From Paenibacillus phyllosphaerae (GTDB lineage: Bacteria; Bacillota; Bacilli; Paenibacillales; Paenibacillaceae), in NCBI RefSeq assembly GCF_014192105.1, contig NZ_JACHXK010000001.1, positions 310,001 through 374,000 of the forward strand: a stretch of DNA of 64,000 nt, written 5' to 3'. The position numbers were made by a program, and so were the translations under genes. Positions 2,745 through 19,675 of the stretch are shown in pieces; the stretch's first letter is position 1; each line of letters starts with the position of its first letter. The notes beneath the pieces are model-generated. The model was not told where the DNA came from. It saw only the letters and a list, made by a program, of their open reading frames with translations, and did not search any database.

Positions 2745-3110
2745 GAGGGGCTTCGCCCCTTAAACCCCTTGTTTTCACCTCGCCCCTTCCCCCTCCGCCG
2801 AGGGGAACCAAGGGCAACCGCCCAGCTTATGCTTCCGAAGTGAGTTTTCCATTCGGAAAACTCTGAGGACACCCGGAACTGGCGTCGCTCGTTACGCGGC
2901 CGTCTTCGATCTGTCCTTTCTTGCTTTGCCCGCTTTTGTCCGATCGGGTAACGGGTATGTCCGTTAGACATCCCGCTTCCCGGTCGGACAAAGCTCTACG
3001 TCGAGCTTCGTTCGCGGCTTTTGTGCCTTGGGAGGAGACTCGCACGAATGAACAAGGTCCGCTGTTACGTGCTGGCTCTCGCTTGACGTCCACTTTGTGG
3101 ACACGCTTTG
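2745..3110 (+). repeat. Structured intergenic repeat R1, copy A
   Basis: This is one of three related intergenic elements (others at 11065-11392 and 19311-19675). In order it contains hairpin AGGGGC-ttc-GCCCCT (2746-2760), a CCCTC/GAGGG hairpin, a GGGC/GCCC hairpin, a GAGTTTTC/GGAAAACTC hairpin and the conserved block ACGCGGCCGTCTTCGAT. A long stem follows (2932-2948 with 2979-2994, GCTTTTGTCC... with ...GGACAAAGC) enclosing ATGTC/GACAT, then AAGCTC/GAGCTT, then terminal hairpin GTCCAC-ttt-GTGGAC (3088-3102). Pairing is kept in the other copies with changed bases. It fills the gap between the hydrolase terminator (3128-3171) and the ABC operon. The 110- and 78-residue minus-strand reading frames across it look incidental. 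Confidence 0.85.
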
Positions 3111-3127
3111 CTTTTTGAAGGGCGTAA

Positions 3128-3171
3128 TAAAAAAGTGCCCCTGCCATGCATTTCTGCACGGTCGGGGCACT
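3128..3171 (-). terminator. Rho-independent terminator of the UlaG-like gene
   Basis: On the minus strand AGTGCCCC pairs with GGGGCACT and is followed by TTTTTT. It begins a few bases after the stop codon of the hydrolase gene. Repeat R1 copy A begins just beyond the T run. Confidence 0.9.
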
Positions 3172-3177
3172 AAACTT

Positions 3178-3936
3178 TTACAACATATAAGAGTCGCCAT
3201 CTTCCGGCACTAGTACCGAAGACGAGATTCCTTTTTCGGCTAGGAAGCTTTTTAATTCCGTTCTGGATAACGTCCAGTGATTCACGGCCTCCATATGGAC
3301 GGAAATAATGATGGAATCTGGGCTAGCTTGATACACGTGATAGATATCGTCTTTGCCCATGACCAAAGAACCGCCCTGCAGGAATTGATTATCCCCGCCG
3401 TTCACCACGATAACCTCTGGCTTGTAGACCTCGATTGCTTCCCGAACGCCTTCATACCACACGGTATCTCCGGCTACGTAGAGCGTTCTCTCTTCCGCAT
3501 GCTTCAATATAACGCCGCAAACGTTGCCTGTGCGCTGTAATATTTCTCCTCGACCATGTTCCCCTTTCGTTTGGATGAGCTGAATATCTTCAAACCGCGA
3601 ATGTGCAGCAAGAATCTCCACATTCAGGAAACCGGCATTTCGAACTTCCTTCGCATCCTCTTCGTTTTGTACGAACATGGGGATCATTTTGGGCAGCGCT
3701 TCTTTGGCTTTATCATCAAAATGGTCGACATGCAAGTGGGTTACAATCACCGCATCTACATCTATAATGGTGTCAACGGGAATAGGTAAACTAGCCAGCG
3801 GATTTGACCGGTCCTGTCTTAACGCGTTAGGAAAAGGCGGATACGTATCCTTATCAGCTAAGAAGGGATCCACTAGGAACTTCTTCCCCGCATATTCCAC
3901 GACCAAGGTTGCATTCCGAATCAATGTGACTTTCAT
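3178..3936 (-). CDS. Metal-dependent hydrolase, UlaG-like metallo-beta-lactamase fold
   Basis: This 252-residue protein has the metallo-beta-lactamase core: an N-terminal IRNATLVVEYAGKKFLVDPFL strand pair, the metal motif THLHVDHFD (HxHxDH), a later GDTVWYEG Asp ligand and a C-terminal SVHMEAVNH histidine. The order and the 'atlvie..g..iLvDP' start match UlaG/YtkL-type hydrolases rather than glyoxalase II. The substrate is unknown. It is divergent from an Lrp/AsnC regulator 151 bp away, which may control it. Its stop is followed directly by a strong terminator. Confidence 0.88.
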   Translation of the reverse strand: MKVTLIRNATLVVEYAGKKFLVDPFLADKDTYPPFPNALRQDRSNPLASLPIPVDTIIDVDAVIVTHLHVDHFDDKAKEALPKMIPMFVQNEEDAKEVRNAGFLNVEILAAHSRFEDIQLIQTKGEHGRGEILQRTGNVCGVILKHAEERTLYVAGDTVWYEGVREAIEVYKPEVIVVNGGDNQFLQGGSLVMGKDDIYHVYQASPDSIIISVHMEAVNHWTLSRTELKSFLAEKGISSSVLVPEDGDSYML

Positions 3937-4087
3937 ATGGTTAGCCCCTTTACTTTGTTATGTATTCATTGTAGGGGATACCCCTATGAAGATACATAAC
4001 TTCGATCAAGTCATTCCGCGTTTTGACTTGAATGATGAAAGAGTACGCAATGGAATGTGTTTGTGATTGCCATGAGGGAGGTATACG

Positions 4088-4498
4088 ATGGATCAAACCG
4101 ACATGCTCATCTTGGGCGAATTGACGAAGAATAGCCGCATCACGATGAAGGAATTAGGGGCGAAAGTGCATTTGACCGGGCAAGCAACGGCAAGTCGTGT
4201 TGCGAAGCTGGAGGATTCCGGCGTGATCGAGGGGTATTCGATTAAAGTCGATCACACGAAATTAGGCTGCAATGTGCACGCCTTTATTACGATTTTTACG
4301 AATGGCCATAATCATCAACCGCTGCATACGTATATCCAAACCCAAGAGCATTATCTATTGAATACGTACAAAATTAGCGGCGATGGATGTTACTTGCTTG
4401 AGTGCCGCTTCCCATCGAATGAACACGTAGATCAATTCCTTAATGGCCTGAGCGACTATGCAAATTACCGCATCTCGATGGTTATCAAACGATCGTGA
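4088..4498 (+). CDS. Lrp/AsnC family transcriptional regulator
   Basis: The 136-residue protein begins MDQTDMLILGELTKNSRITMKELG, the typical Lrp/AsnC N-terminal helix-turn-helix, followed by LTGQATASRVAKLEDSGVIEGYS as recognition helix and linker. A RAM-type alpha/beta domain follows (residues about 62-136), including the TYKISGDGCYLLECRF strand region that resembles the effector-binding domain of Lrp proteins. GGGAGG precedes the ATG. The gene is divergent from the UlaG-like hydrolase, and control of that neighbour is a natural inference. Confidence 0.9.
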   Translation: MDQTDMLILGELTKNSRITMKELGAKVHLTGQATASRVAKLEDSGVIEGYSIKVDHTKLGCNVHAFITIFTNGHNHQPLHTYIQTQEHYLLNTYKISGDGCYLLECRFPSNEHVDQFLNGLSDYANYRISMVIKRS

Positions 4499-4533
4499 GA
4501 TCCTGTGAGATGGATGATCTGTTCATTAGACCA

Positions 4534-4568
4534 AACGGCAACCGTCTTCCGATCGGCTGCCGTTCTCT
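4534..4568. terminator. Shared terminator between convergent genes
   Basis: AACGGCA (4534-4540) pairs with TGCCGTT (4558-4564), with an inner CCG/CGG. It lies in the 73-bp gap between the convergent Lrp-type regulator and ABM-domain gene. T runs are weak on both strands, so efficiency is uncertain. Confidence 0.6.
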
Positions 4569-4571
4569 CTA

Positions 4572-4892
4572 CTAAGCGTCAAACGAATATTCGCGTTCCA
4601 CCTTGCAAATCCGCACCTTGTAATTCTCGTACCAGACCTGTTGGCCTTCCTCTTGCGCCACCTTGTGCGATTGATGCTGCTTCCAATTGTGGATCGCCTC
4701 CAGGCTCTCCCAATACGAGATGGTAATGCCCGATCCCGAGGCGTCCCGCACGCTCTCCACCCCTAAGAATCCGGGCTGCTCCCTGGCAAGCTCCTCCATT
4801 CGTTCCCCCATCTGGGAATAACCGTTGTCCCCATCCGTTCGTTGGCTCGAAAAAATAACGGCATAATAAGATCCATTCGTCGCGGCTGTCAT
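4572..4892 (-). CDS. ABM-domain (antibiotic biosynthesis monooxygenase-like) protein, YqjZ type
   Basis: This is a small 106-residue ferredoxin-like alpha/beta barrel protein. The segments YYAVIFSSQR, MEELAREQPGFLGVES, ISYWESLEAIHNWKQHQSHK and WYENYKVRICKVEREY follow the order of ABM-superfamily proteins such as YqjZ. The last tract (SYWES...I..WK....H) is very typical. The family includes quinol monooxygenases and haem-degrading enzymes, but the reaction here cannot be assigned. The gene stands alone between convergent and divergent neighbours. Confidence 0.82.
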   Translation of the reverse strand: MTAATNGSYYAVIFSSQRTDGDNGYSQMGERMEELAREQPGFLGVESVRDASGSGITISYWESLEAIHNWKQHQSHKVAQEEGQQVWYENYKVRICKVEREYSFDA

Positions 4893-5133
4893 CCCTGTCG
4901 TCCTCCTTCTCTAGCGCAGCTCTTAAAGTAGCGTATACGATTAGAATTAAAATTAAAATAGCGCGTGTGTATAATCCCGTGATCTATCCATTATCGAACG
5001 GACGAAATAAATCTGCTCCTCTATGTACCAACAGAATGAATATCCAAATCACAGTCCAATTGAAACAATTTGCCAGATAATCCCGTCCATGATAAAAGAT
5101 CCACTTATTTTGTTTGTCATGGAGGTTCGAGGG

Positions 5134-6159
5134 ATGTCTAATCGTGTAGAACAACACAAACACAAGAAGCAATCTTCCCCTAAGAAAGCGCTGCTTCGTT
5201 TCATTCTCTTCGGCCTCATCCCATTGCTTGCGGCTGGATATTTATTCCGACAAGAGATCGCGCTCTTGCTATTCGACAACATCGTTGCACCCACGATCGA
5301 GACCGGACTCGCCGAGAGTTACGAACCCCTGCCGAACAAGGAGACCAAGGTCATTGTCCAGGATGCGGAGCCCTTTACGATGCTCTTGTTAGGCGTGGAC
5401 CAGCGCGATAACGAAATCGGCCGCTCCGATACGATGATCTTTTCGGTCGTAAGACCGAAGGAAAAGCGGGTTCTCATGATCTCCATACCCAGAGATGCTT
5501 ACGTCAACATTCGGGGAGCGAGTGAGCATAGCCGTTCCCATGACAAAATTACGCATGCTTATGCTTTCGGGGGCGCAAGTGCTTCCGTCTCCACGATCGA
5601 GGGACTGCTCTCGCAAAGGGTCGATTACTATGCCACCATTAATTTCAAAGGCGTCGAGAACACCGTGGATGCGCTAGGCGGTCTTCGCCTGCCGATAACC
5701 GAGGACCTCGTGAATGACGACAAGGACCATGAGAAATTCGTCATTCCAGGCGGACAGGAGCTATACAACGGCGAAGATGCCTTGAATTATGTTCGTTACC
5801 GCGAAGATGCCGGCGGGGATCTCAATCGCACGCACCGGCAAGTCGAATTCATCCGAGCGGTCACCTCAAGAATGATCGAGCTCGGCAATCTAACCAAGAT
5901 CCCTACGATCCTGGACTCTTTAGGGGAAACACTTAAGACCGATATGCCCCCGAGCACAATGACCGACAACGCCATGCGGTTCCTTGAGCACGACGACAAT
6001 TTCATCACAAGCCACACCCTCAAGGGGACCGGCGGGAAAAGGGACGATGGGATCTGGTACTATAATGTGGACGAAGAAGATCTCGTTAACGTGAAAAATG
6101 AGATATCTAGGTGGCTTGACCCCGACCTGCCAATCGATTCAAGCAGCACGCTAAAGTAA
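5134..6159 (+). CDS. LytR-CpsA-Psr (LCP) family cell-wall glycopolymer ligase
   Basis: The protein has a short basic N-terminus, one membrane helix (about residues 20-40) and an extracellular LCP domain. The domain shows TMLLLGVDQRDNEIGRSDTMI, VLMISIPRDAYVNI, HDKITHAYAFGG and ALNYVRYREDAGGDLNRTHRQVEFIRA, with the Arg/Asp residues that bind polyprenyl phosphate. LCP enzymes attach teichoic acids or other glycopolymers from lipid carriers to peptidoglycan. I chose the ATG at 5134 because GGAGG ends 8 bases before it; this gives 341 residues, while the longer frame from 5023 adds a poorly supported extension. Confidence 0.92.
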   Translation: MSNRVEQHKHKKQSSPKKALLRFILFGLIPLLAAGYLFRQEIALLLFDNIVAPTIETGLAESYEPLPNKETKVIVQDAEPFTMLLLGVDQRDNEIGRSDTMIFSVVRPKEKRVLMISIPRDAYVNIRGASEHSRSHDKITHAYAFGGASASVSTIEGLLSQRVDYYATINFKGVENTVDALGGLRLPITEDLVNDDKDHEKFVIPGGQELYNGEDALNYVRYREDAGGDLNRTHRQVEFIRAVTSRMIELGNLTKIPTILDSLGETLKTDMPPSTMTDNAMRFLEHDDNFITSHTLKGTGGKRDDGIWYYNVDEEDLVNVKNEISRWLDPDLPIDSSSTLK

Positions 6160-6166
6160 ACAAAAC

Positions 6167-6205
6167 CAGCCCTGGACCACCTATTCCGGTCCAGGGCTGT
6201 CTCTC
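6167..6205 (+). terminator. Terminator after the LCP gene
   Basis: AGCCCTGGACC (6168-6178) pairs perfectly with GGTCCAGGGCT (6188-6198), followed by a T/C-rich tail. The GTTTTG run on the other strand suggests it may also serve the convergent GH2 gene. Confidence 0.8.
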
Positions 6206-6246
6206 CTTCTATTTCAAACCTTTCTTAACCAACCCTATACTCCGCC

Positions 6247-9200
6247 TTACTCCACGCTTCCGCTCCAGTCGTCCAGAATCATGCGTGCTACCGCCGACAA
6301 CGAACGGATCGAGATCGTGCCTTCGTCGAAGATATCCGCTGCTTGCAGCTGCTCCCATCCGGCGTCTTCGCTCGTGATGCGATAGTTCGCCGCCATGATG
6401 GACAGATCGCGGATGCTGACTTTGGTCTGGCCTTCGATGAGGCTGATGAAGCGCGTCAGGAACTGCTGGACCGCCTCGCCAAGCGCGGCTGTCGCTTGAT
6501 CGACGCTCGATTGCGACGCGTTCGCGCGGTTCTTGACGGCGATTGCGGCGTCGATCGCCGTTTGCAGCGCGGCCTTGGCGCCGGCTTCGTATTGGCCGAG
6601 CTTCGTGCCTTCGACCGCTTTGGCGAGCTTCGCTTGTGCGGCGTCGATCGCCGCGCTCAGCGCTGTTTTGTCCGCCGGATTCGCCGGGTTGACCGAATCG
6701 CGGAAGGTATCGACCGCTTGCGCGAGCGCCGTAATGGCTGCTGCCACTTGCTCCGCGGTTGCGCCTGCGTTGTCGCGGACGCTGATCGCGCTGTTGATCG
6801 CCGCTTGCAGGGTTGCCTTGGCGCCTGCTGGGTATTCGCCCGGCTGCGAGCCTTCCGATGCGGCATCGTGAAGCGCTTGCGCTTCTGCGATCGCAGCGGT
6901 AAGCGCTGTTTTGTCCGCCGCGGCAACGTTGATTTGCAGTTCAGCCGACGTATCGTACGAGGTTTCATCGCCATCCTTGGATACATCGAATCTGCTGAGC
7001 GTTACGGTGGCCGTACCCGCTTCCGCGCCTGCTTTCACGGTGCCATGCAGCTGGAGCAGCGAACCGTCCTGTGCCACTTCATTAGCGGTACCTTCGCTCG
7101 CCATAATGACGCGAATGCTGCCTTCGTCCGGTTTCACGGCCGTGCCGACGACGCGCAAACCGCCGCGCAGCTCGCTGAATGCGCCTTCCGCCAGCGCATA
7201 AGTCGTCTTGCCGTCTTGTTCCGAAGCAACCGTCTCGAACGACAATTGGCTCGGATCATAATGAATGATCGTATCGATCGTCGTGAAAGGAGACTTCACG
7301 TTCGCCGCGCCCAGTTCAATATCGACCGCTCCGCCGACCGAAGCCGACTCCGTGCCGGAGAGCGTCGCCGAAGGATCGGAAGAGATCGGCGCGACGGCAA
7401 AATAATCGAATTTCGCCGGAATCGACGTGCCATCCGTCGCTGCAATCGCGTACAGGCCGACTTTCAGCTCGCTGCCGAGCTCGACCTGCAGCGGATCGGC
7501 TGCCTGTACCCACGCCGTACCGTTCCAATAGTAGCTCGTGAACGTATTGCCCACTTTGTTCAGCTTCAAGTAGGCGGTATCGTAGCCGGGATGCGGCTGC
7601 ATGTTCGCAGCTTTGCCGTATTTGCCCGATTTTTCATACGCCGTCTCCAGCGATTTGCCCGTCGATCCGACCGTATCCCATACATGGCCGAAGCGGACGT
7701 AGTTGTCCTCATTCGCCCAGATGAACAGACCGGCCTGCTGATGATTCTTGTTGATCGGTGCCGTGACTTTGAACGTGATCGAGAAGTCGCCCTCTGGCGC
7801 ATCCTTCAGGAAGACGTTCTTGATGCCGTTCGCGTTCTCATAGCTGTCGCCGGCGAGCGTAGTCAACGTCAGACTGCCCGGATTCTCGCTCAAGCTCCAT
7901 TTTGTATCATCTTTGCGATAGATCGACCATGCCGCATCAAGCTGCGCGGCATCGAAGCTGTCAACTTGCGCGCCCGCGGCGATCGGATCGTTCACGCTGG
8001 CGAATAGCTGCGCGCGTCCTTCTTGCAGTTGGTTGATCGCCGATTGAATCGCCTTCGATGTGGGGGAGGCCGAATCGTACACCTCTTGCGCGCTTGCAAT
8101 AATCGCGTTAAACGCATTCGCCACTGCCTGCGCATATTGGCCCGGCTTGCTGCCCACTTTAATCGAAGCCTCCTGGCCACGAGCTGCCGTAAGGGCTGTC
8201 GCCAGATCCGTCTTTGACGCATTGCCGATCAGCTCGCGGTGCGCTTGCGCCACGGCGTCGAAGTCCATTTTCTCTACCTTGCGGTCATAGGAGAGCAGGC
8301 CGTTGATTTCATACTCGACGTCCGTAATCTGCGTATACACCGCCGCGCTCAAGCCCTGGTTATTCTTGAATTGCTTCAGCTGCTCGATGTATTGGATGTA
8401 ACGCTCCGTCAGCTGCTCCTTGCTCTCCATCAGCTGATAGGAGAAGACGAGCGGGCTCCATTCATGGCCTGGCACATGCAAGCCAAGACCGCCATATTCC
8501 CCTAGCACTGCCGCGCGAGAAGCCGTTGGTACCGGCGTATTCGGACCCGGGTAGCTGTGGTAGTCGATCAGATCACCAGCGCCCGAATCTTGCCAGCCGC
8601 TCGCATTGTTGATGACGCGGGTCGGGTCGTACGCTTTGACGCGGTTAACCGCATCGCGCGTCTGCTGGCCGCCCCAGTCGAATTGCCCCCAGCCTTCATT
8701 GAATACGGTCCAGACGACGATCGACGGCACGCTGCGCAGCTGATCGATCATCTCCATGTATTCCTTCATCCATTGATCCTTCGTCGCTTGCGAGATATCC
8801 CGGCCCTGGTTGCCTTGACGGTCCTCGAGGCTCGGCATATCCTGCCATACGAGCACGCCGAGCTTATCCGCCCAGTAGTACCAGCGCGCCGGCTCTACCT
8901 TGATATGTTTGCGAATCATGTTCATGTCCAGACGTTTGACCGTCTCGATATCGAACTTGAGCGCTTCTTCCGTCGGCGCCGTGTACAGCCCATCCGGATA
9001 ATAGCCTTGGTCGAGCGGCCCCATCTGGAACACGAACTCGCCGTTGAGCAGAATCCGCTTCTTGCCGTCGACGTCGCCGACTTTAATTTCCCGCATGCCA
9101 AAATAGCTGTCTACTTCATCGACGACCTTCGACGCGCCGTCAACAAGACGCACCTCCAGATCGTACAGGAACGGATCATCCGGCGACCACAGATGCGCAT

Positions 9201-10842
9201 CCGGAATGAATACCGCGAGTTCTTCTCCCGCATTGCCCGTTGCCGTACCGACAACTTCATCCCCGATCTTCGCGATCGCTTCTACCTTGTGTCCGCTTCC
9301 GTTCTCTACGGCAGGCTTCAGCAGCAGCTTGCCTTGGTTGATGTCGGTAACCATATCCAGCTTCTCGATATGCGCGCTCGCCACCGGCTCGAGCCATACC
9401 GTCTGCCAGATCCCGGAGATCGACGTATACCAGATCCCGCCGAGCTTCTTCACCGTCTGCTTGCCGACCGCTTGGTCAGCGCCGACATCCGTTTGGTCGA
9501 GCACATGCACGATCAGCTCATTCTCGCCGGCAACCAAGTATTCGGTGATGTCAAAATCAAACGACGTGTAGCCGCCCTTATGCTGGCCGACCTGTTGACC
9601 GTTGACATACACGGTCGCGAGATAGTCCACCGCGCCGAAGTTCAGCTTGACCCGCTTCCCGTCCCAGCTCTCCGGAATCGCGAAGCTGCGTTTGTACCAC
9701 ATCAAATCCTCGACGCGGTTAATGCCGGACAGCACGGATTCCGCCGCGAACGGCACAAGGATGTTCTCCTCCAGCGTCTCGCCGGTAGGTACCGCATCGC
9801 CCTGCTCCGCCGCTTCGAACTCCCATTCGCCGTTCAGATTGAGCCAATCCGTACGCTCGAATTGCGGGCGCGGATATTCCGGCAGCACATTGTCCGGATC
9901 GACATCATCCGCCCACGGGGTCATGATCTGGAACTTCGAGTTGTTCACGATGCTGTTCGCGAAGCTCGCGACAGCGCGCCCATCTTCGGTTTGCAGTCCG
10001 CCGTTGCCGTCATAACGGACATGGACGAGCTTCGCATCTTTGCCGTAGACGGCATTGGCGAAGGTCAACTGAATGATCGAGCTGTCGCCTTCTTTGAGCC
10101 CAATCGAAGTAATCGGCCAATCCGTTCCGCTGACCGACAGCTTCAGCGAATCTTTCAGATTAGCCGGCAGCGTACTCAGCTTATAGCCGAACTGAAGATC
10201 CGCCGTCAGTCCGCTCTCGGCAATGACGCCTGATGTTGGACCATCGAAGGAAAAGTTATCCGGGAGATAGAAAGCATCCGCCGGTACGATCTGCTTCGCC
10301 ACGCTCGGACTTTGCCAGCGCAGATACAGGTTCGAGCCGCCGTTGTTCTCGAAATACTCGATCTTGAAGTTATATTTCACGCCGGCTTGCAGCGCGATCG
10401 GCTGGCCGACCTGCTCCTTATCCCAATCGTTCACCCAGTGATCGATAATGAGCTTGTTGTCGACCCACAACCGGAATCCGTTGTCGCCGATCATCGAGAA
10501 GGTGTACGTCTCGGAATGCGTCGGCATAATTTGACCCGTCCAGCGGACATTCACATTGTCGTTCTGTCCTACGAGGGTGCTGAATACCGGCTCGAGCCCG
10601 CTGAAATTGATCTGCGGATCGATCACCGTCGACTTCAAGGTCCCGAAGTTGAAAGCGCTCGGACCGGAACTCGTGTAATAATCCGCCTTCAAGCCATGCA
10701 CGTCGCCGGCTTCCGCTTCCTCCGCCTCCGCTGCCGTTTCTGCCGCATAACTGAAAGGTGTCTGATAGGCATGTATGAACGTGATGAGCATGGTTAGGAC
10801 CAGCAGTCTGGCGATTCTGGCCATGTTCACTTGCAATGCCAT
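6247..10842 (-). CDS. Secreted multidomain GH2 glycoside hydrolase with PA14, FIVAR, cohesin-like and dockerin-like modules
   Basis: This 1531-residue exported enzyme has a signal peptide (1-34) and a PA14 carbohydrate-binding domain (about 50-192). A GH2 sugar-binding, immunoglobulin-like and TIM-barrel set follows (about 320-890), with acid/base Glu716 in VWTVFNEGWGQ and nucleophile Glu782 in VLGEYGG. Next come a FIVAR-like helical segment, a LamG/DUF1349-like beta domain with AGLFIWANEDNYVRFG, a cohesin-like domain with IHYDPSQLSFE, two FIVAR repeats, and a degenerate dockerin-like end (VSIRDLSIMAANY and TISIRSLSAVARMIL). The activity is likely beta-galactosidase or beta-glucuronidase type, acting outside the cell on a polysaccharide. 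GGAGGA lies 8 bases before the ATG. Specificity is not readable from the sequence. Confidence 0.9.
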   Translation of the reverse strand: MALQVNMARIARLLVLTMLITFIHAYQTPFSYAAETAAEAEEAEAGDVHGLKADYYTSSGPSAFNFGTLKSTVIDPQINFSGLEPVFSTLVGQNDNVNVRWTGQIMPTHSETYTFSMIGDNGFRLWVDNKLIIDHWVNDWDKEQVGQPIALQAGVKYNFKIEYFENNGGSNLYLRWQSPSVAKQIVPADAFYLPDNFSFDGPTSGVIAESGLTADLQFGYKLSTLPANLKDSLKLSVSGTDWPITSIGLKEGDSSIIQLTFANAVYGKDAKLVHVRYDGNGGLQTEDGRAVASFANSIVNNSKFQIMTPWADDVDPDNVLPEYPRPQFERTDWLNLNGEWEFEAAEQGDAVPTGETLEENILVPFAAESVLSGINRVEDLMWYKRSFAIPESWDGKRVKLNFGAVDYLATVYVNGQQVGQHKGGYTSFDFDITEYLVAGENELIVHVLDQTDVGADQAVGKQTVKKLGGIWYTSISGIWQTVWLEPVASAHIEKLDMVTDINQGKLLLKPAVENGSGHKVEAIAKIGDEVVGTATGNAGEELAVFIPDAHLWSPDDPFLYDLEVRLVDGASKVVDEVDSYFGMREIKVGDVDGKKRILLNGEFVFQMGPLDQGYYPDGLYTAPTEEALKFDIETVKRLDMNMIRKHIKVEPARWYYWADKLGVLVWQDMPSLEDRQGNQGRDISQATKDQWMKEYMEMIDQLRSVPSIVVWTVFNEGWGQFDWGGQQTRDAVNRVKAYDPTRVINNASGWQDSGAGDLIDYHSYPGPNTPVPTASRAAVLGEYGGLGLHVPGHEWSPLVFSYQLMESKEQLTERYIQYIEQLKQFKNNQGLSAAVYTQITDVEYEINGLLSYDRKVEKMDFDAVAQAHRELIGNASKTDLATALTAARGQEASIKVGSKPGQYAQAVANAFNAIIASAQEVYDSASPTSKAIQSAINQLQEGRAQLFASVNDPIAAGAQVDSFDAAQLDAAWSIYRKDDTKWSLSENPGSLTLTTLAGDSYENANGIKNVFLKDAPEGDFSITFKVTAPINKNHQQAGLFIWANEDNYVRFGHVWDTVGSTGKSLETAYEKSGKYGKAANMQPHPGYDTAYLKLNKVGNTFTSYYWNGTAWVQAADPLQVELGSELKVGLYAIAATDGTSIPAKFDYFAVAPISSDPSATLSGTESASVGGAVDIELGAANVKSPFTTIDTIIHYDPSQLSFETVASEQDGKTTYALAEGAFSELRGGLRVVGTAVKPDEGSIRVIMASEGTANEVAQDGSLLQLHGTVKAGAEAGTATVTLSRFDVSKDGDETSYDTSAELQINVAAADKTALTAAIAEAQALHDAASEGSQPGEYPAGAKATLQAAINSAISVRDNAGATAEQVAAAITALAQAVDTFRDSVNPANPADKTALSAAIDAAQAKLAKAVEGTKLGQYEAGAKAALQTAIDAAIAVKNRANASQSSVDQATAALGEAVQQFLTRFISLIEGQTKVSIRDLSIMAANYRITSEDAGWEQLQAADIFDEGTISIRSLSAVARMILDDWSGSVE

Positions 10843-11064: not shown

Positions 11065-11392
11065 AAAGGGCTTCTCCCTTCAGAACCCCTTGATTTCACC
11101 TCCCCCACCCCTCCATCGGAGGGGATGCAAGGGCCACAGCCCTCTGCACACCCGAAATCGGCCTGGTACGTTACGCGGCCATCTTCGATGTTTCCTTTCG
11201 ACGTTAGCCCGCTTTTGTCCCTATGGTTTGCTTGCAAGTCCAGTAGAACTTGCAGCATTCCAGTAAGTGGGACAAAGCTCTATGTTCGAGCTTCGTCCAC
11301 GACGGTTTACCTTGGAGAGCAGACCTCTATTACATGCGTTTATGCATACTTCCCGCTATCCCTCGCTAAAGTCCGCTCGCGCGGACAAGCTT
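11065..11392 (+). repeat. Structured intergenic repeat R1, copy B
   Basis: It has the same plan as copies A and C but diverged sequence. Hairpins are AAGGG/CCCTT (11066-11080), CCCTCC/GGAGGG and GGGC/GCCC. The conserved ACGCGGCCATCTTCGATG block follows, then GCTTTTGTCC (11211-11220) paired with GGACAAAGC (11270-11278). That stem encloses a new hairpin TGCAAGT/ACTTGCA (11233-11239 with 11248-11254). AAGCTC/GAGCTT and terminal GTCCGC-tcgc-GCGGAC (11371-11386) complete it. It lacks the GAGTTTTC/GGAAAACTC module of A and C. The element accounts for about half of the 688-bp gap between the GH2 and PNPOx genes; I see nothing else in 10843-11064 beyond the GH2 leader. Confidence 0.85.
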
Positions 11393-11444
11393 TACGATGA
11401 TCCACAGATCACTTCAGTGCATAATTTCCTAAACGCTGAATAAC

Positions 11445-13077: not shown

Positions 13078-13917
13078 TTAACCTTTGACACCCGAGATCG
13101 CGACCGATTCGATGATCTGCTTCTGGAAGATGATGAAGACGATCAACATCGGCAAGAGGGCGATAACCGAAGCCGCCATGATGAGCGGATAGTCGGTCTG
13201 AATGGCGTACATCGCATTGAAGTTCGCAATGACGAGCTGGAGCGTTTGTTTCTCTGGCGAAGTCAGGTAGATAATCGGCGCCAGATAGTCGTTCCAGATG
13301 CCCATGAACCACAGGATGAACTGTGCCGCGATGGCCGGCTTGATGAGCGGGAAGATAATCCGGCCGTAGATGCCGAAATAGGACGTTCCGTCGATCTTAG
13401 CCGCTTCGATGATCGCGTCCGGTACGCTCGACAAGTATTGGCGCAGGAAGAAGATCATAACGATGTTGCCGAACAGGCCTGGCACGATCAGCGGCTTCAG
13501 CGTATCGATCCAGCCGAGCTCGGAGAACATCATGAACTGCGGGATCATAACCGATGGATACGGAATCATCAGGGACGACAGCAAGAACAGGAAGATGACG
13601 TTCTTGCCTGGAATCCGCAGCTTCGCGAACGCAAAAGCGGCCAGCGAAGAAGTGAACGTCCCGACGATCGTGACGGAAACCGCGATGATGACGCTGTTCT
13701 CGATACCTTGAAGCAATGGACCCGCTTCCCAAATCTCTTTATACTTGCCCCACACGAATGGATCCGGGATCCACTTCGGCGGAAGCGCAAAGACTGACAT
13801 TTTATCCTTCACGGAAGTCGAGACCATCCACAAGAGCGGAGCGATCATGACGATTGCGCCGATGGCCAGGATAATGAAAATGATGATATCCCCGATTCGT
13901 TTGTTGCGTGTGTACAT
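13078..13917 (-). CDS. Carbohydrate ABC transporter permease, MalG type
   Basis: This 279-residue membrane protein has about six helices and the CUT1 permease EAA loop (DAIIEAAKIDGTSYFGIYGRIIFPLIKPA), the contact site for the ATPase. It follows the MalF-type permease by 15 bp. No ATP-binding gene is present; CUT1 systems of this group usually share a general MsmX-type ATPase encoded elsewhere. Together with the lipoprotein and GH43 genes it probably imports arabinose- or xylose-containing oligosaccharides. Confidence 0.92.
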   Translation of the reverse strand: MYTRNKRIGDIIIFIILAIGAIVMIAPLLWMVSTSVKDKMSVFALPPKWIPDPFVWGKYKEIWEAGPLLQGIENSVIIAVSVTIVGTFTSSLAAFAFAKLRIPGKNVIFLFLLSSLMIPYPSVMIPQFMMFSELGWIDTLKPLIVPGLFGNIVMIFFLRQYLSSVPDAIIEAAKIDGTSYFGIYGRIIFPLIKPAIAAQFILWFMGIWNDYLAPIIYLTSPEKQTLQLVIANFNAMYAIQTDYPLIMAASVIALLPMLIVFIIFQKQIIESVAISGVKG

Positions 13918-13932
13918 GGTTTTCGCTCCTTT

Positions 13933-14817
13933 CTATGCGTTATCGCTCGACTTATCCAGTCTGAATTGAATCAAGGTGACGATGAAAATGAATAAGCCAA
14001 GGACGACCGACATCGCCGAAGCGTAACCCATTTGGAAGTTGCCGAACGCTTTCTGCCAGATGTAGAAGACGACAGAAGCGGAGCTGTATTCCGGACCGCC
14101 TGTAGAAGTCATGATGTTGATCTCGGTAAAGATCTGCGAGCCGCCGATAATGTTCGTGACGACGAGGAAGAACGTTACGGGTCTAACCATCGGCCATGTA
14201 ATGTTCCAGAAGGCTTGCCAGCTGTTCGCTCCGTCCAGCTCTGCCGCTTCGTAGTAATCCTTCGGCACGCTCTGAATGGCGGCCAAGTACAAGAGCATCG
14301 TGTAGCCGAGGCCTTTCCAAATCGCCATCAACATGATTGCCGGTTTAACCGTATATTTATCGGCGAGCCAGTTCGGACCTTCGATGCCGAACAGATCGAG
14401 GAACTGGTTCACCAAGCCGTAGTCACCGTTATAAGCCCACTGCCACAGAATCGAGATTGCGGCGAGGGACGAAATGACCGGAATGTAATAAATAACGCGG
14501 AATGCCGTCGTTCCCCAAATTCCGCGGTTGAGGCCCAAGGCCAGAAGCAAGGCGAGAATGAGACCGATCGGAATGCCGATCATCATGAACAGCGTGTTGA
14601 ACATCGCTTTGTAGAACAATTCGTCCTGGAATAATTCGGTGTAGTTCTCCAGACCGATCCAGTTCATCTGGCCAAGACCGTCCATATCGGTAAAAGAGCT
14701 GTATACCGAGTAAAGCGTCGGGAATAAGCCGAAGATGAGGAATCCAAGAACAGGCGCCAAAATAAACAGATAACCATAATATTTCTCTTTGCGGTACAGA
14801 TTGGACTTCGTCTCCAT
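13933..14817 (-). CDS. Carbohydrate ABC transporter permease, MalF type
   Basis: This 294-residue permease starts METKSNLYRKEKYYGYLFILAPVLGFLIF, a typical CUT1 MalF-like first helix. It carries the EAA loop PKDYYEAAELDGANSWQAFWNITWPMVRPV, which touches the ATPase. It lies 130 bp downstream of the substrate-binding lipoprotein gene, with a strong hairpin in that gap, and directly upstream of the MalG-type gene. It belongs with these in one uptake system. Confidence 0.92.
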   Translation of the reverse strand: METKSNLYRKEKYYGYLFILAPVLGFLIFGLFPTLYSVYSSFTDMDGLGQMNWIGLENYTELFQDELFYKAMFNTLFMMIGIPIGLILALLLALGLNRGIWGTTAFRVIYYIPVISSLAAISILWQWAYNGDYGLVNQFLDLFGIEGPNWLADKYTVKPAIMLMAIWKGLGYTMLLYLAAIQSVPKDYYEAAELDGANSWQAFWNITWPMVRPVTFFLVVTNIIGGSQIFTEINIMTSTGGPEYSSASVVFYIWQKAFGNFQMGYASAMSVVLGLFIFIVTLIQFRLDKSSDNA

Positions 14818-14847
14818 AAGTCACCCCTGATCTTTTGCGAAACCGGC

Positions 14848-14883
14848 GATGATGCCAGCCCTCTCCTATGGGCTAGCATCATC
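14848..14883 (-). promoter_or_regulatory. Intercistronic stem-loop between binding-protein and permease genes
   Basis: GATGATGCCAGCCC pairs with GGGCTAGCATCATC with one mismatch and a short loop, but no T run follows on the minus strand. Such a structure commonly stabilises the 3' end of the binding-protein mRNA and raises its level over the permeases. This role is inferred from position. Confidence 0.65.
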
Positions 14884-14946
14884 TTCCGTTTCATCAGCTA
14901 TATATCTCGTTCATTATTATAATGAAGTGCTTGATCTTGCCTGATC

Positions 14947-16362
14947 TTACTTCTTGGATTTCTCTTCTGCTTCATTCGCTTTATCGAGCAGCTTCTGCAT
15001 CTTAGGCTGTTCGGATTTCACGTATTCGGCAGCTGTAACTTTACCGTCGAGTACTGGCTGGATGTCCGTGAAGAACAGGTTGTACCATTCAGCGTTGTAC
15101 GTACGCTCGCCTGGCAGGGAACGGCCGTAGTCGTTAACAATATCAAGGAACTCTTGCTTGTTAGCAGGCTTCGTCGCAGTATCAGCAGCCCATGTAGCAG
15201 CCATGTCTTTCAGGTTCGGAATTTGAACCTTCGCGTCTACCAGCATTTGCATGCCTTCTTGGGAAGCCGTAAGGTACGTTACAAGCTCAGCAGCTTCTTG
15301 CGGGAATTTCGTGTTATTGGATACGCCGATACCGAGCGAGCCAACCCAAGTCGCTGTTTTGCCAGTGGAACCTACAGGATAAGGAATTAGGTCATAGTCG
15401 AACGGAAGCTTCTCGTAAGTCGGCATATCCCATGGTCCTACAGGGAAGAAGGCAAGCTCGCCTTTCATCCAACGTTGGTACGTATCGAGCGTTTGCGCAT
15501 CTTCGATCGAAGGCGTGATTTTGTGAACGTTCTGCATGTCAGCGAAGTATTGCAGCGCTTCTGCGAATTTCGGATCGTCGATCGTTACTTTCGTGCCTGT
15601 CTCATCGATCCAGTCCGCACCGTTAGACCATACGAACGATTGAAGTGACCAGTTTACGTTGAAGCCCGTGCCGTATTGATCAGCTTTGCCATCGCCGTTC
15701 GTATCTTGCGTCAGCTTCTTGTTGACTTCGATGAACTCATCGAATGTGTAAGGCTTGTCTTTGTCCGGAAGCGGAATTCCTGCTTTCTCGAACATCGTTT
15801 TGTTGTAGCCGAGCGCGAATGGACCCAAGTCCTTCGGCAAGCCGTACAGTTGGCCTTGGCCGACGACTTGTCCGTCATAACGATACAGGTTTACGCCTTT
15901 GTCCCATACTTGCGTAATGTCGACATTCGAATTGCCTTCAACATATTGCGTGATATCCATCAGTACGCCGCTATTCACGTAAGCGCGAAGGTCGCCGTAG
16001 TTGTAATAGAATACGTCAGGCACTTTCTTACCTGTAATAGCCGCTTTCAGCTTCGTTGCGTACTGATCGGCCGCCGTTACGACGATCTTAACGTCTACGC
16101 CCGGGTGGTCAGCTTCGAACTTCTCGACTACTTTCGTATATGCTTTCTGCTCATCCGTTCCGCCGCGGAACATGAACGTCAGTTCTTTCTTCTCTACTTT
16201 ACCGCTGTTGCTTGCGCCGCTGTTGCTTGCGCCGCTCTCTGCTGCATTGCCGCCGTTGCTAGCTGCGTTGCCGCCTTCGTTGTTGCTGCCACAGCCAGAC
16301 AGAACGAGAACAGATGCCATTGTAACTGCTGCGATTGAAAGTAAGCCTTTCCGTTTTTCCAC
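14947..16362 (-). CDS. Extracellular sugar-binding lipoprotein of the ABC transporter (CUT1 family)
   Basis: The 471-residue protein has a type II signal peptide with lipobox LSGC (about residues 24-27 of the chosen start), a Ser/Asn/Gly-rich linker, then a family 1 solute-binding domain with [35 protein letters not shown]. It is anchored outside the membrane and delivers sugar to the MalF/MalG-type permeases. The start is a GTG at 16362 preceded by GGAGGGG at 7-base spacing; an upstream in-frame TTG at 16377 is less likely. The 310-bp leader holds a promoter with an internal catabolite-repression-like site. Confidence 0.92.
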
Positions 16363-16553
16363 TTGGAACCCCTCCAATTTATATATAGAAGTGCTTGCGC
16401 AGTCGTGTAAGCCTTCTCAAACGAACACGCAGCTGGTGAAACCGTATTCAATCTTGCTTGTCGGATCTAATCATTCCATCTGGATTATTCTTGGCTGCGA
16501 TAATGATTAGTTGTTTTGTTAACGTTAATGCGTTTTCGTTACATTTAGATTAA

Positions 16554-16575
16554 TATAGAGCGCTTTCAAAGTCAA
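16554..16575 (-). promoter_or_regulatory. Promoter -35 and cre-like site for the binding-protein gene
   Basis: On the minus strand TTGACT (16575-16570) is followed immediately by TTGAAAGCGCTCTATA (16569-16554), one mismatch from the CcpA cre consensus WTGNAANCGNWNNCWW, in the position of a promoter spacer; the -10 (TATATT or TAATCT) is weak. CcpA bound here would block RNA polymerase. A perfect palindrome TTAACGTTAA (16519-16528) further down is a candidate LacI-type operator. Nothing else recognisable lies in the 310-bp gap 16363-16672. Confidence 0.6.
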
Positions 16576-16672
16576 TATTTTCTTTCACACTGCTAAAAGC
16601 GAGTGTGAAAGATGAAAATACGTCTATAATATTCACAATTACATTAACAATAAGGTTATCGTTTTGTTCAAC

Positions 16673-17653
16673 CTAAATCAGGTTTTTACCATCTGGAAGC
16701 GGCTCGCCGAAGTTAGGCGTACCGTCCGGATTCCACCCGAAGAGCTGAACTCTCGCATGGCGGTTCGGATCGTACAACGGGTCGCCGACGATTTCTTTGT
16801 AGCTGCGCGCATGGAACACGATAACATCACGGCCGTCTTCCGTAACGGTAAAGCTATTATGGCCCGGTCCGTATTGGCTGTTCGCCTCATTCGTCGTGAA
16901 TACCGGCACCTCGGATTTGATCCAGGAAGTCGGATCGAGAAGATCGGAAGTCTCCGCCGCCCAAATAATGCCCATGCAGTAATTATAATCGGTAGCACTA
17001 GCAGAATACGTGATGAAAATCTTGCCATTTCGTTTGAGCACGGCTGCGCCTTCATTAACAAGGAAGCCAATCTTCTCCCACTCGTACTCTGGCGTCGTAA
17101 TCATAACTTGACGGTTGATATCGATCGTCCATGGATTAATCATCGGAGCGATATAGAGATTGGAGTTTCCTTTAATAGAAGGATCTTTCTGCGCCCATAC
17201 CAGATAGCGCGTTCCTTCGTGCTCGAACGAAGTTGCGTCAAGCGCGAACGATTCCCATTTCGTTACGATCTGGCCCTTCTCCACCCATTGTCCTTCGAGC
17301 GGATTAGCCGATTCGTTCTCCAATACGAACATCCGGTGATCGAACAAACCTTCATTCGTCTCCGCCGTCCAGGCTGCAGCAAAGTAAATATACCATTTGC
17401 CATCTACGTAATGGATTTCCGGCGCCCAGATGTTCGCGCTCATCTTGCCGCTCTCATGCTTGCGCCATGCAACTACCGGCTCGGCATCCGTCAGACCCGC
17501 CAGCGTCTCGGAGCGTCTAACCTCAATGCGGTCATACTCGGGAACAGAACCTGTAAAGTAATAAAATCCATCGCTATGCCGATAAATCCAAGGATCAGCA
17601 CGCTGCTCAATAAGAGGATTCGAGATCTCTCTTGCTGCTGAAATGTTCGACAT
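16673..17653 (-). CDS. Glycoside hydrolase family 43 (arabinofuranosidase/xylosidase type)
   Basis: This 326-residue five-bladed beta-propeller has the GH43 marks: IEQRADPWIYRH with the catalytic base Asp20, NIWAPEIHYVDGKWYIYFAA, ALDATSFEHEG with the pKa-modulating Asp, and FLVNEGAAVLKRNGK with the likely acid Glu. No signal peptide is visible, so it probably acts on imported oligosaccharides. I chose the ATG at 17653 (MSNISAA) with GGATGGTGA before it; the longer frame from 17734 would include promoter DNA. It is the first gene of the minus-strand sugar cluster that continues with the binding protein and permeases. Confidence 0.92.
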   Translation of the reverse strand: MSNISAAREISNPLIEQRADPWIYRHSDGFYYFTGSVPEYDRIEVRRSETLAGLTDAEPVVAWRKHESGKMSANIWAPEIHYVDGKWYIYFAAAWTAETNEGLFDHRMFVLENESANPLEGQWVEKGQIVTKWESFALDATSFEHEGTRYLVWAQKDPSIKGNSNLYIAPMINPWTIDINRQVMITTPEYEWEKIGFLVNEGAAVLKRNGKIFITYSASATDYNYCMGIIWAAETSDLLDPTSWIKSEVPVFTTNEANSQYGPGHNSFTVTEDGRDVIVFHARSYKEIVGDPLYDPNRHARVQLFGWNPDGTPNFGEPLPDGKNLI

Positions 17654-17675
17654 TTCTTCACCATCCTGATTTGCG

Positions 17676-17734
17676 TTAATAAGCAAGTTAATCGTTTGTG
17701 TTTTTATTATATTTGCAGGTTTGATGTAAATCAA
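17676..17734 (-). promoter_or_regulatory. Promoter of the GH43 gene with possible operator
   Basis: On the minus strand TTGATT (17734-17729) and TATAAT (17711-17706) are separated by 17 bases, a good SigA promoter. Just downstream, 17676-17696 is an imperfect inverted repeat with the pattern CGnTTAA...TTAAnCG, a possible site for a sugar-responsive repressor. The rest of the 391-bp gap 17654-18044 is AT-rich; it contains ATCATTAATAATATCATTAA-like sequence and the LytTR promoter. Confidence 0.72.
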
Positions 17735-17994
17735 CAGTTTTTTTAATGAAAATAAGGGCTGTTTGCGTTTTCATCCCTGTTTAACGAAATCCTGATCATT
17801 AATAATATCATTAACACAATGGCTTTTTCCCTCATTTCAGAGGGTTATTAACAACCTTCACCTTAATCATGGAAGACACTCAGCTTCAAGGATAATCAGA
17901 ACCGATGTCAGTAAGCCCACCGGAAAACTAATCACGAATCACTGATTTTTTTATTGTTTTTTCGTGTCAACCCGTTTCTTTTGATAGCGTTTTA

Positions 17995-18017
17995 TGCTAA
18001 AATGAAAGCGCTAACAA
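17995..18017 (+). promoter_or_regulatory. Extended -10 and perfect CcpA cre site before the LytTR gene
   Basis: TGcTAAAAT (17995-18003) is an extended -10. It runs into ATGAAAGCGCTAACAA (18002-18017), which matches the cre consensus WTGNAANCGNWNNCWW at every defined position. A cre overlapping the start point is the classical arrangement for CcpA repression. Confidence 0.78.
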
Positions 18018-18044
18018 ATTCATCGGATTGAGGGGGCATTTGGA

Positions 18045-18368
18045 GTGATGAATGTAGCGCAGGAAGTTCGCAACGTGTATGAGAACTTTGAGATCGACAA
18101 GGACATTCTCTTCTTCAAAGTTGGTCGCAACGGCATCGTCAGCTTCCACGGCAGAAACTACAACATAAAAAAAATTATGCCGACGGAGCAACTGAACGGC
18201 TTTATCGCAAGCGGCCAATTCGTGAAGGCAAGTTCGAACTGTTATGTGAACGTAGGGAAGATCATCGCTATTGAGGATGGCATGATTCGCTTCGACCACG
18301 GCATCGAGTCCAAACTTGTACCTGTTTCCATGTGGCACCAATCCCATCTCAGAAGCTTGCTGTCCTAA
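18045..18368 (+). CDS. Stand-alone LytTR DNA-binding domain protein
   Basis: The 107-residue product is essentially one LytTR domain: ILFFKVGRNGIVSFHGRNYNIKKIMPTEQLN, then FVKASSNCYVNVGKIIAIEDGMIRFDHG. These match the beta-strand DNA-binding fold of LytR/AgrA response regulators (vhR.shlVNl.hI) with a changed 'R' (SSNCYVN). There is no receiver domain and no membrane segment. The GTG at 18045 is preceded by GAGGGGG; an ATG follows directly at 18048. Its promoter carries a perfect cre site, so it is probably repressed on preferred sugars. Its targets are unknown; the divergent GH43 cluster is a candidate. Confidence 0.82.
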   Translation: MMNVAQEVRNVYENFEIDKDILFFKVGRNGIVSFHGRNYNIKKIMPTEQLNGFIASGQFVKASSNCYVNVGKIIAIEDGMIRFDHGIESKLVPVSMWHQSHLRSLLS

Positions 18369-18395
18369 GAGGACGCCTACCATACAAGTCACTAG

Positions 18396-18433
18396 AGAGC
18401 CTTGTCTCCTTCCACCAGAGCAAGGCTCTTGCT
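18396..18433 (+). terminator. Terminator of the LytTR gene
   Basis: AGAGCCTTG (18396-18404) pairs with CAAGGCTCT (18421-18429), followed by TTGCTTATG. Confidence 0.78.
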
Positions 18434-18524
18434 TATGTGTAAATTTGCCAATCCCTCCTTCTCATAAGGGAAGGCTGCACGAAGTACAATACGTTTACGC
18501 GAATGACGAAAGGAGGGACTTTCC

Positions 18525-18614
18525 ATGGCCAAGCAGCAAGGACACGGCAAGCAAAATACGCAAACCAAATCCAACAAGAACAACGGCAATAACAACGGCG
18601 GCAGCGAGAGCTAA
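18525..18614 (+). CDS. 29-residue Lys/Gln/Asn/Gly-rich small protein, possibly a minor spore protein
   Basis: The frame begins ATGGCCAAGCAGCAAGG with AAAGGAGGGA at good spacing upstream and ends TAA at 18612-18614. The peptide starts MAKQQGHGKQNT and is dominated by Lys, Gln, Asn, Gly and Ser with no hydrophobic residues after Met. This composition resembles minor small acid-soluble spore proteins, but I do not recognise a specific family. The strong ribosome site and the isolated position between two terminators support a real gene. Confidence 0.65.
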   Translation: MAKQQGHGKQNTQTKSNKNNGNNNGGSES

Positions 18615-18641
18615 TCGCTTCGGATGACGGTTCGAGAAAAG

Positions 18642-18676
18642 CAAAAAGACCGGAGAGGCTAGTCCTCCCCGGTCCT
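18642..18676 (-). terminator. Terminator of the MarR-family gene
   Basis: On the minus strand GGACCGGGGAGGAC pairs with a CTCTCCGGTC arm and is followed by TTTTTG. It also lies 28 bp beyond the stop of the 29-residue gene. Confidence 0.85.
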
Positions 18677-18709
18677 TCGCATGCTCGCCTTTCGTTACTA
18701 GCCACGCTG

Positions 18710-19171
18710 TTACTCGCTATCCGGTTTGCCTTTGTTCGCCTCATCCATATTCCGGTTAATCTGCATGAGCAGCCGCGTTAATTCGCCGACATCCTGCCGC
18801 GATAGGCCGGAGAACATTTTGTCCCGAATTTCCCGCTGCTTCTCCTTCAAATTCCTGACGATCTGTCTCGCTTCGTCCGTGACGGACAGCAGCACGACCC
18901 GGCGATCCTCTTCCGCTCGCTCGCGAACGATCAATCCCATCTCCATCAGCTTGTCCGCGATGCCGGTGATCGCCCCTGGGGTCACGAACAGTTGCTCCGC
19001 AATGGATGACGCTTTCTGCGGCCCGTCTTCGTTCAGCCGAACCAGTATTCGCGCTTGCAGCGCATTAAGCCCCTGGCTGCTGCCTTTGGTCCACTCCGCG
19101 TCCATTCGTCTGCGCAGTTGTATGAAGGCGTGATCCAGCTGCTTCAGTTCCTGTTGTTCACGATCAGTCAT
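18710..19171 (-). CDS. MarR family transcriptional regulator
   Basis: This 153-residue winged-helix protein shows QGLNALQARILVRLNEDGPQKASSIAEQLFVTPGAITGIADKLMEMGLIVRERAEEDRRVVLLSVTDEARQIV. That is the helix-turn-helix followed by the wing DRR motif of MarR proteins. It should act as a dimeric repressor. No effector or target is evident: the neighbouring genes are a 29-residue peptide on the other strand and, beyond structured repeat R1 copy C, the urease operon. Confidence 0.9.
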   Translation of the reverse strand: MTDREQQELKQLDHAFIQLRRRMDAEWTKGSSQGLNALQARILVRLNEDGPQKASSIAEQLFVTPGAITGIADKLMEMGLIVRERAEEDRRVVLLSVTDEARQIVRNLKEKQREIRDKMFSGLSRQDVGELTRLLMQINRNMDEANKGKPDSE

Positions 19172-19310
19172 AATATGAAATCCCCCTGCCGATCCATATT
19201 TCTATATTATTAAATGTAGAGTAAGGCGATTGGAATGTAAAGGAGGGGAGTGCCCCCTGGCCCCTAAAGGGGAGAGCTAGGGCTGCCGCCCTCGTGCACC
19301 CGCTGGTTCG

Positions 19311-19675
19311 TTAGGGCTGTGCCCTAAAACCGTTTAGTTGCCTCCCCCTTCCCCCTCCAACGGAGGAGAACCAGAGGGCCACGGCCCAGCTTATGCTTCC
19401 GAAGTGAGTTTTCCCTTGGAAAACTCTGAGGACACCCGTAAGCGGCTATATGTGAAACGCGGCCGTCTTCGATGTGTCCTTTCGCAATGGGCTCGCATTT
19501 GTCCTTACCGGAAAATTAGGCATGTGAACATGCCTGCTTCCTGTTGGTCGGACAAAGCTTTCTTTCGAGCTTCGTTCGTCACTTTGATGCCTTGGGGTGG
19601 AAATCCGGTACTTCGCTGATTTTGATATCATACGTGCTGACTCTCGCTTGACGTCCACTTTGTGGACACGCTTGA
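19311..19675 (+). repeat. Structured intergenic repeat R1, copy C
   Basis: The plan matches copy A: TAGGG/CCCTA (19312-19326), CCTCC/GGAGG, GGGC/GCCC, GAGTTTTC/GGAAAACTC, the ACGCGGCCGTCTTCGATG block, TTTGTCC paired with GGACAAA (19498-19504 with 19550-19556), AAGCTT/GAGCTT and GTCCAC-ttt-GTGGAC (19653-19667). The long stem encloses AGGCATGT/ACATGCCT (19518-19525 with 19528-19535), unrelated in sequence to the hairpin at that place in A and B. Extra GC-rich hairpins (about 19240-19300) precede it. In the 691-bp gap 19172-19862 the remaining part holds only the ureD terminator and a short TTGCC/GGCAA hairpin. Confidence 0.85.

Follow-up and report, generated by a model that had tools for sequence, protein, structure and literature searches.

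The question raised by a 64,000-nucleotide (nt) stretch of the Paenibacillus phyllosphaerae genome (contig NZ_JACHXK010000001.1, positions 310,001 to 374,000; hereafter the window) concerns the nature of R1, a structured element present there in three copies. An original prediction had reported shared sequence blocks and several hairpins whose pairing is kept while the bases change. All three copies, the blocks and the named hairpin pairs were found in the window sequence, and each copy lies between genes. The observation holds, and its extent exceeds what was first stated. Absent from the first account were an optional insertion, a loop pseudoknot, a tandem duplication of the right module elsewhere and an orientation that follows replication. 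Taking the evidence together, we tentatively favor the view that R1 is a non-autonomous, modular DNA repeat which acts as folded single-stranded DNA at the replication fork and would be moved by a putative enzyme.

Copies of R1 were sought in the whole P. phyllosphaerae genome (G000), which comprises 54 contigs and 7.89 Mb. Allowing at most two mismatches, we found the core ACGCGGCCNTCTTCGAT at 105 places (58 forward, 47 reverse), 64 of them exact, while the reversed core used as a control gave seven places (six forward, one reverse). Extension of the core by TGTCCT left 48+32 places in P. phyllosphaerae and 17+14 in Paenibacillus methanolicus, against none for the control; of 39 genomes searched in this way, only these two (P. 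phyllosphaerae included) matched and the other relatives gave nothing. The right end alone occurred at 40+26 places in P. phyllosphaerae, again with an empty control. By profile, at least 84 full-length copies (220 or more aligned bases) were counted in P. phyllosphaerae and at least 21 in P. methanolicus BL24 (G020), both numbers being lower bounds since the searched DNA was picked around pattern matches. In P. phyllosphaerae the element measures approximately 300-450 nt and comprises several hairpins. Its right boundary is sharp, lying about 10 nt beyond GGACACGC in 70 copies. The concern that related genomes might hold no further copies was thus dispelled by P. methanolicus and by other genomes of the family.

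Does the fold itself matter? RNAalifold yielded no useful structure from the 105-row alignment; therefore, the pairs were derived from column statistics over the 105 copies. Four clear hairpins emerged: Pa, which is C-rich; Pb, the second, of the form CCAGAGGGC-NNNN-GCCCTCTGG; Pe, whose long stem GCTTTTGTCC/GGACAAAGC encloses a variable inner hairpin; and Ph at the right end, GTCC(A/G/C)C...G(T/C/G)GGAC. Besides Ph, the strongest covariation included two pairs that join the Pb loop to a downstream CCC[NN]AA, each of them paired in 93% and occurring as AT/CG/TA and CG/TA/GC, respectively. We read this arrangement as an H-type pseudoknot. In 45 copies the structural pairs showed 56 two-sided changes compared with 11.8±2.8 in shuffles, none of 500 shuffles reaching 56, and the number of further pair types was reached by eight of 500; because the structure had been derived from the same copies, the test is biased in its favor. 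When the partners were slid by one to three columns as a control for the 56, only 5 to 21 two-sided cells remained. A script gathered 35 hairpins from further genomes of the family, two of them plainly unrelated by eye. Visual inspection showed the loop pairing intact in most; it is absent from a few, such as L175 and L187, where GCA faces CGAAA. Covariation exceeds chance, the fold of R1 is under selection, and the evidence supports the original proposal that selection acts on structure, be it of RNA or of single-stranded DNA.

To which of the two molecules the fold belongs is addressed by the orientation of the copies. Their strands split sharply by contig, with ratios of 23:0 on C1 (1 Mb), 0:9 on C3, 6:0 on C4, 8:1 on C13 and 1:4 on C7. 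Within 20-kb stretches, the GC skew relative to the element was negative at 46 of 48 places in P. phyllosphaerae and at 27 of 28 in P. methanolicus; the majority direction of the genes agreed at 40/48 and 24/28 of the same places. Full-length copies with more than 9 kb of sequence obeyed the skew in 42 of 43 cases in P. phyllosphaerae and in 21 of 21 in P. methanolicus, 63 of 64 together; another 41 full-length P. phyllosphaerae copies were left unscored for short flanks or because no upstream gene was called. Gene calls relied on a simple rule for open frames. The skew was also obeyed by all 22 copies whose upstream gene lies on the strand of the element and by all five with both neighbors on it. 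An explanation of the polarity by gene leaders is thereby insufficient, as these 22 copies, whose upstream gene runs counter to the gene rule, still obey the skew. GC skew is a standard proxy for the direction of fork movement, and it stands here in place of a mapped origin. On this proxy, the minus strand of R1 is the lagging-strand template.

The same tendency was seen in 16 near-complete genomes, where 51 of 61 matches (E<=0.01) lay in the left half of the record when on the plus strand and in the right half when on the minus strand. For this count same-strand tandem copies less than 1 kb apart were taken once, the start of the record was set as origin and some lengths were rounded. The p-value of 1e-7 is optimistic, some places being common to several genomes (orthologous). 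Ten exceptions are among the 61, and three exceptions in the family belong to inverted pairs or lie near the middle of the record.

The original prediction had leaned towards RNA transcribed from the plus strand because of U-G pairs. This part did not hold. At nine covarying pairs, alternative Watson-Crick cells numbered 147 in the 105 copies (31 in shuffles), and G·T and A·C were about equally rare, with 16 and 14 cells (72 and 71 in shuffles). Choosing these pairs for covariation favors Watson-Crick cells and does not bear on how G·T and A·C compare with each other. When all pairs of the four clear hairpins were taken, A·C (74) exceeded G·T (21), a difference to which a shift in the alignment may have contributed. 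The reverse was seen in Pc, Pd and Pf, three helices of lesser certainty (G·T 75, A·C 25). Copy A folded better than its shuffles on both strands, about equally and whether treated as DNA or RNA (z -4.24, -4.09, -4.62 and -4.89). Thus, the clear hairpins bear no signature of a plus-strand RNA, and if a strand is favored there, it is the minus strand.

A structured RNA, i.e., a leader or small RNA acting after transcription, appears improbable on these data. It would fit the folding of both copy A strands and the G·T excess of the three less certain helices, and several family copies do lie between apparent operon genes such as ffh/rpsP, uvrB/uvrA and an ileS T-box leader/ileS (names assigned by eye). 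However, the nine covarying pairs show no strand-specific wobble, no Rfam model matches R1 at its gathering threshold, and inspection by eye revealed no promoter-like conserved block beside the copies upstream of der. Moreover, the gene upstream of the 84 P. phyllosphaerae copies may point either way (51 "-", 32 "+", one not called), whereas the polarity towards replication is fixed. Since the orientation tracks replication whichever way the neighboring genes point, a role at the level of DNA is favored, and we infer that selection acts there.

The distribution of related sequences was studied with a covariance model built from 45 copies. Of 394 genomes of the Paenibacillaceae, 162 matched at E<=0.001, distributed over 10 of 19 genera (six candidates were scored per genome, and the E-values are rough). 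Among 250 genomes sampled from the class, 14 matched, P. phyllosphaerae included, and all 14 belong to the Paenibacillaceae. In the minimal element, about 150 nt long, a C-rich left hairpin and the pseudoknot hairpin are separated by a free spacer from the right hairpin CGCTTTCGTCC..GGACACGCTTTAC. Its left part has TTTTCGATCCC.CCCAAACCCTCCC-AAGGGAGGG or CCCCCTAAATCCCCC-AAGGGGG ahead of the pseudoknot hairpin; beyond the spacer, the right module CGCTTTCGTCCC-GGGACACGCTTTAC occurs once or several times. R1 is an expanded, lineage-specific form of this non-coding repeat family, which is spread through the Paenibacillaceae. The copy number is erratic, with at least 84 in P. phyllosphaerae and few in most congeners searched. 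Some family copies form inverted pairs 0.4-0.6 kb apart. In two species (L226, L227) such a pair appears, by eye, to separate the start codon of ileS from what resembles its T-box leader. The right module may be tandemly repeated two to five times at a spacing of about 75-94 nt (L157:1095-1354, L066:9599-9767, L160:1281-1632, L237).

Outside the chromosomes of the family little was found. The exact R1 core word had no match in viral contigs, and a blastn search of phages with one family element (L173) was likewise negative. On plasmids the same query recovered only the piece with the left C-rich hairpin, in P. cellulosilyticus, Nostoc and Allocoleopsis; the hairpin CCCCCTAAATCCCCCTTAGCCAAGGGGGAC (L173:1463-1502) is approximately 90-92% identical over 36-38 nt to the Nostoc and Allocoleopsis plasmid sequence. 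Two pattern matches in unrelated contigs of metagenome-assembled genomes were rejected as chance words, as the profile covered only 26-38 positions of them with 11.5 and 12.1 bits. Titles and the beginnings of abstracts, in a coverage that leaves out most subscription journals, contained no description of an R1-like repeat.

How could such an element have spread? According to the mechanism we favor, the replication fork would expose the G-rich minus strand of R1 on the lagging-strand template, the exposed strand would fold, and a putative trans-acting enzyme would move or copy it. Action as a folded single strand would account for the orientation of the copies towards replication instead of transcription, for the retained pairing and for the lack of coding capacity. 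Eight P. phyllosphaerae copies have both flanking genes on one stretch of P. methanolicus. Seven of these stretches lack a profile match between the genes and one has it; at one of the seven empty places the genes are 1.65 kb apart. For a further copy, of which just one neighboring gene was matched, a counterpart in P. methanolicus was recognized by eye. The P. methanolicus stretches compared were those chosen for holding copies.

Several findings weigh against a mobile repeat. No pair of dispersed copies is more than 89% identical, indicating that there was no recent transposition; the median identity between copies is 70%, and it is 69.7% between P. phyllosphaerae and P. methanolicus. Twenty reciprocal nearest pairs differ by 2.3% at columns conserved elsewhere and by 43.5% at variable columns. 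In the nearest pairs, 15 two-sided changes fell on structural pairs where 1.9 were expected, and 11 of them pair in both copies. The empty sites were obtained between distant species, whose diverged junctions make target-site duplications unreadable. Upstream of der, the minimal element is kept in 28 of 30 species, a sample (the best 30 of 60 matching among 61 searched) that leans to carriers because the query species has the element. The two der sites without a copy resemble deletions by eye. Polarity is also weaker in the wider family, where besides the 51/61 matches mentioned above only 19 of 28 three-kilobase loci with their short flanks show a negative skew. The constraint on nearest copies and the retention at der suit a function in place better than a decaying mobile element.

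The main rival is a cis element of the fork maintained by the host, in which the folded lagging-strand template would serve the chromosome (in priming or restart, in fork polarity or in segregation) and selection would keep the copies in their place and orientation. It would account for the near-total, gene-independent polarity in P. phyllosphaerae and P. methanolicus and for copies that are only some 70% identical, none of them recent, and yet have kept their structure. The der locus fits as well: its median identity amounts to 86% in the left module, 83% in the right module and 87% at the coding end of der, compared with 40% in the inner spacer and 27% in the flank on the der side. The erratic copy number across congeners, the lack of seven of the eight testable copies at the matching P. 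methanolicus place and the copies that break polarity are difficult to reconcile with it, and we regard it as somewhat unlikely. A new class of replication-polar DNA structure kept by the host, in which dispersed sites on the lagging-strand template fold with a pseudoknot, are read by the replisome or a fork protein and were multiplied in some lineages, is in our estimate unlikely. Beside many of the der copies, on their downstream side, another dispersed palindrome, rich in AT (ATTGTATTTTGTACAGTTATTTC and related forms), was noticed by eye (L242-L271).

The search for an autonomous partner also speaks against a mobile repeat, as none of Y1 transposase, TnpB and reverse transcriptase was found in all carriers tested. 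Y1_Tnp (PF01797) was detected in none of six genomes by a search that was positive in five of 14 controls. The TnpB zinc domain (PF07282) was present in five of eight carriers and absent from P. methanolicus, G021 and G273. The reverse transcriptase domain RVT_1 occurred in seven of eight carriers, the draft P. methanolicus genome giving no match. These results bear on two alternatives with known enzymes. Mobilization of R1 by a Y1 transposase, as a non-autonomous IS200/IS605-type element (PATE) or a REP, is very improbable: the six genomes lack Y1_Tnp, three carriers lack the TnpB domain, and R1 pairs a loop to a downstream segment, unlike IS608, in which a foot guide pairs to a cleavage site. 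Replication polarity and subterminal hairpins are nevertheless as in IS200/IS605 (PMC5371812, PMC6006769).

The other alternative is a retro-element served in trans by the reverse transcriptase of a group II intron and primed from nascent lagging strands, with the minus strand as RNA sense strand. Group II introns are known to use the lagging-strand template. In genome G288, eight of ten RVT_1 matches are on the plus strand in the right half and two on the minus strand in the left half, which is the sense of the R1 minus strand; L198, one of the ten, has an Rfam match to a group II intron. In addition, the A·C excess in the four hairpins (74 vs 21), which is the wobble of a minus-strand RNA, would fit unless it is partly an alignment shift, as would the presence of RVT_1 in seven of eight genomes. 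On the other hand, draft P. methanolicus has the repeat and no RVT_1 match, and the nine covarying pairs lack an A·C excess. Six reverse transcriptase loci (L194-L199), each with at least one Rfam match to a group II intron, contained no match to the R1 model, and the R1 loci contained no intron match. Insertion next to terminators in the style of group IIC introns was looked for by eye in a few copies, with gaps of about 20-150 nt. We consider this retro-element quite improbable.

When compared with Rfam (4227 models), R1 reached the gathering threshold of none of its families. In the window only 5_ureB_sRNA and 6S reached this threshold, both outside R1. A permissive search (E up to 5) of six family loci, two R1 copies among them, gave psRNA2, two whalefall-1 matches, a truncated FMN match and, within the copy A long stem, mir-341, all below gathering and dismissed as chance or edge matches. 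No match to a group II intron or its domain V was obtained in the window at gathering or in the six loci at E up to 5.

Among known repeats, IS200/IS605 and its non-autonomous derivatives share with R1 an orientation that recapitulates replication (PMC5371812) and hairpin ends. R1 differs by the absence of a Y1 transposase from six genomes, by the hairpin-loop pseudoknot and by its modular make-up over 150-450 nt. IS200/IS605 elements use a fixed short target beside one end and make no duplication; in R1 the right boundary is sharp, and the junctions at the empty sites are too diverged to be read. Membership in this group fails on the defining enzyme, the polarity being alike. BOX of Streptococcus pneumoniae is a modular repeat with variable inner modules and strong secondary structure, thought to be parasitic and slow-moving (PMC3049150). 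Like R1 it is small and dispersed, and the tandem right modules of the R1 family resemble the BOX inner modules; the likeness is one of description, and BOX possesses terminal inverted repeats like those of insertion sequences (PMC3049150), with no replication polarity given for it in the passages covered. REPs are 20-40 bp in size, and the CGTC REPs, which lack a dedicated transposase, are listed for five phyla without Firmicutes in the accessible part of PMC3733652. GTAG- and CGTC-tagged REPs are intergenic palindromes like R1, whose right hairpin contains CGTCC. However, R1 with its roughly 150-450 nt and several hairpins is not a 20-40 bp palindrome ending in CGTC, and a pseudoknot does not appear among the REP features described there. 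With group II introns R1 has in common the polarity, that of RVT_1 in G288 equaling that of the R1 minus strand; it differs by loci without an intron match and by P. methanolicus without a reverse transcriptase match.

In the window, the profile matched copies A (2776-3107), B (11097-11391) and C (19340-19672), all on the plus strand. The outer limits were judged by eye, and with the extra left hairpin modules A starts near 2742 and C near 19236. Copy A (2742..3117) begins with an extra left hairpin AGGGGC/GCCCCT (about 2745-2760), followed by the C-rich hairpin Pa (2790..2805), the pseudoknot hairpin Pb with its optional insertion of approximately 40 nt (2808..2868; loop partner 2875-2877), the conserved core ACGCGGCCGTCTTCGAT and CTGTCCTT (2894..2918), the long stem Pe (GCTTTTGTCC/GGACAAAGC) with its variable inner hairpin (2932..2994) and the right-end hairpin GTCCAC/GTGGAC with an ACGCT tail (3088..3107). 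Copy B (11065..11400) represents a GCAAGGG subfamily without the insertion. It comprises Pb (11127..11147; partner 11154-11156), the core ACGCGGCCATCTTCGAT (11173..11189), Pe with its variable inner hairpin (11211..11278) and the right-end hairpin GTCCGC/GCGGAC (11371..11391). Copy C (19236..19681) carries the extra left modules at about 19236-19330, Pa (19352..19368), Pb with the 40-nt insertion (19371..19431), the core (19457..19473), Pe with the inner hairpin AGGCATGT/ACATGCCT (19495..19558) and the right-end hairpin (19653..19672). The insertion, AGCTTATGCTTCCGAAG...GGAAAACTCT, thus lies within the second hairpin of A and C and is missing in B. Both pseudoknot pairs are complete only in C, where the loop AC faces GT at 19438-19439; A needs a shift by one base (CC/GG) and B keeps one of the two pairs. 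As regards the terminal inverted repeats and target-site duplication of a MITE, short imperfect inverted arms spanning the copy were seen in A (9 nt, 89%) and B (12 nt, 83%) and not in C; they are not common to the copies, and the junctions are unreadable.

Elsewhere in the window, the 5_ureB_sRNA match (23477-23772, plus strand, 126.9 bits) opposes a long minus-strand frame resembling the urease alpha subunit (22209-23942), and a 6S RNA gene is located at 34554-34738 on the minus strand (79 bits). In the genome at large, five copies of R1 appear to carry an insertion sequence that lacks obvious inverted ends, always at one position of the core, following TGTCCTT. This insertion sequence is known only as identical pieces at contig ends (C3:1, C18:1, C34:1, the ends of C13 and C20, the starts of C13 and C30; L019, L081, L082, L085, L123, L144, L145), and R1 may be its preferred target. 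Contigs C48-C54 (L131-L137), 1.4-1.9 kb in size, consist entirely of N.

With 63 of 64 scored copies tracking replication, and with a fold that includes a covarying pseudoknot and persists between copies of about 70% identity, R1 makes, as a natural example, a strong case that selection acts on single-stranded DNA in folded form. As a testable system it could serve for studying either single-stranded DNA mobility that needs no Y1 transposase or cis elements at the replication fork. For the Paenibacillaceae, R1 is furthermore a marker for intergenic DNA that no Rfam model recognized at gathering.

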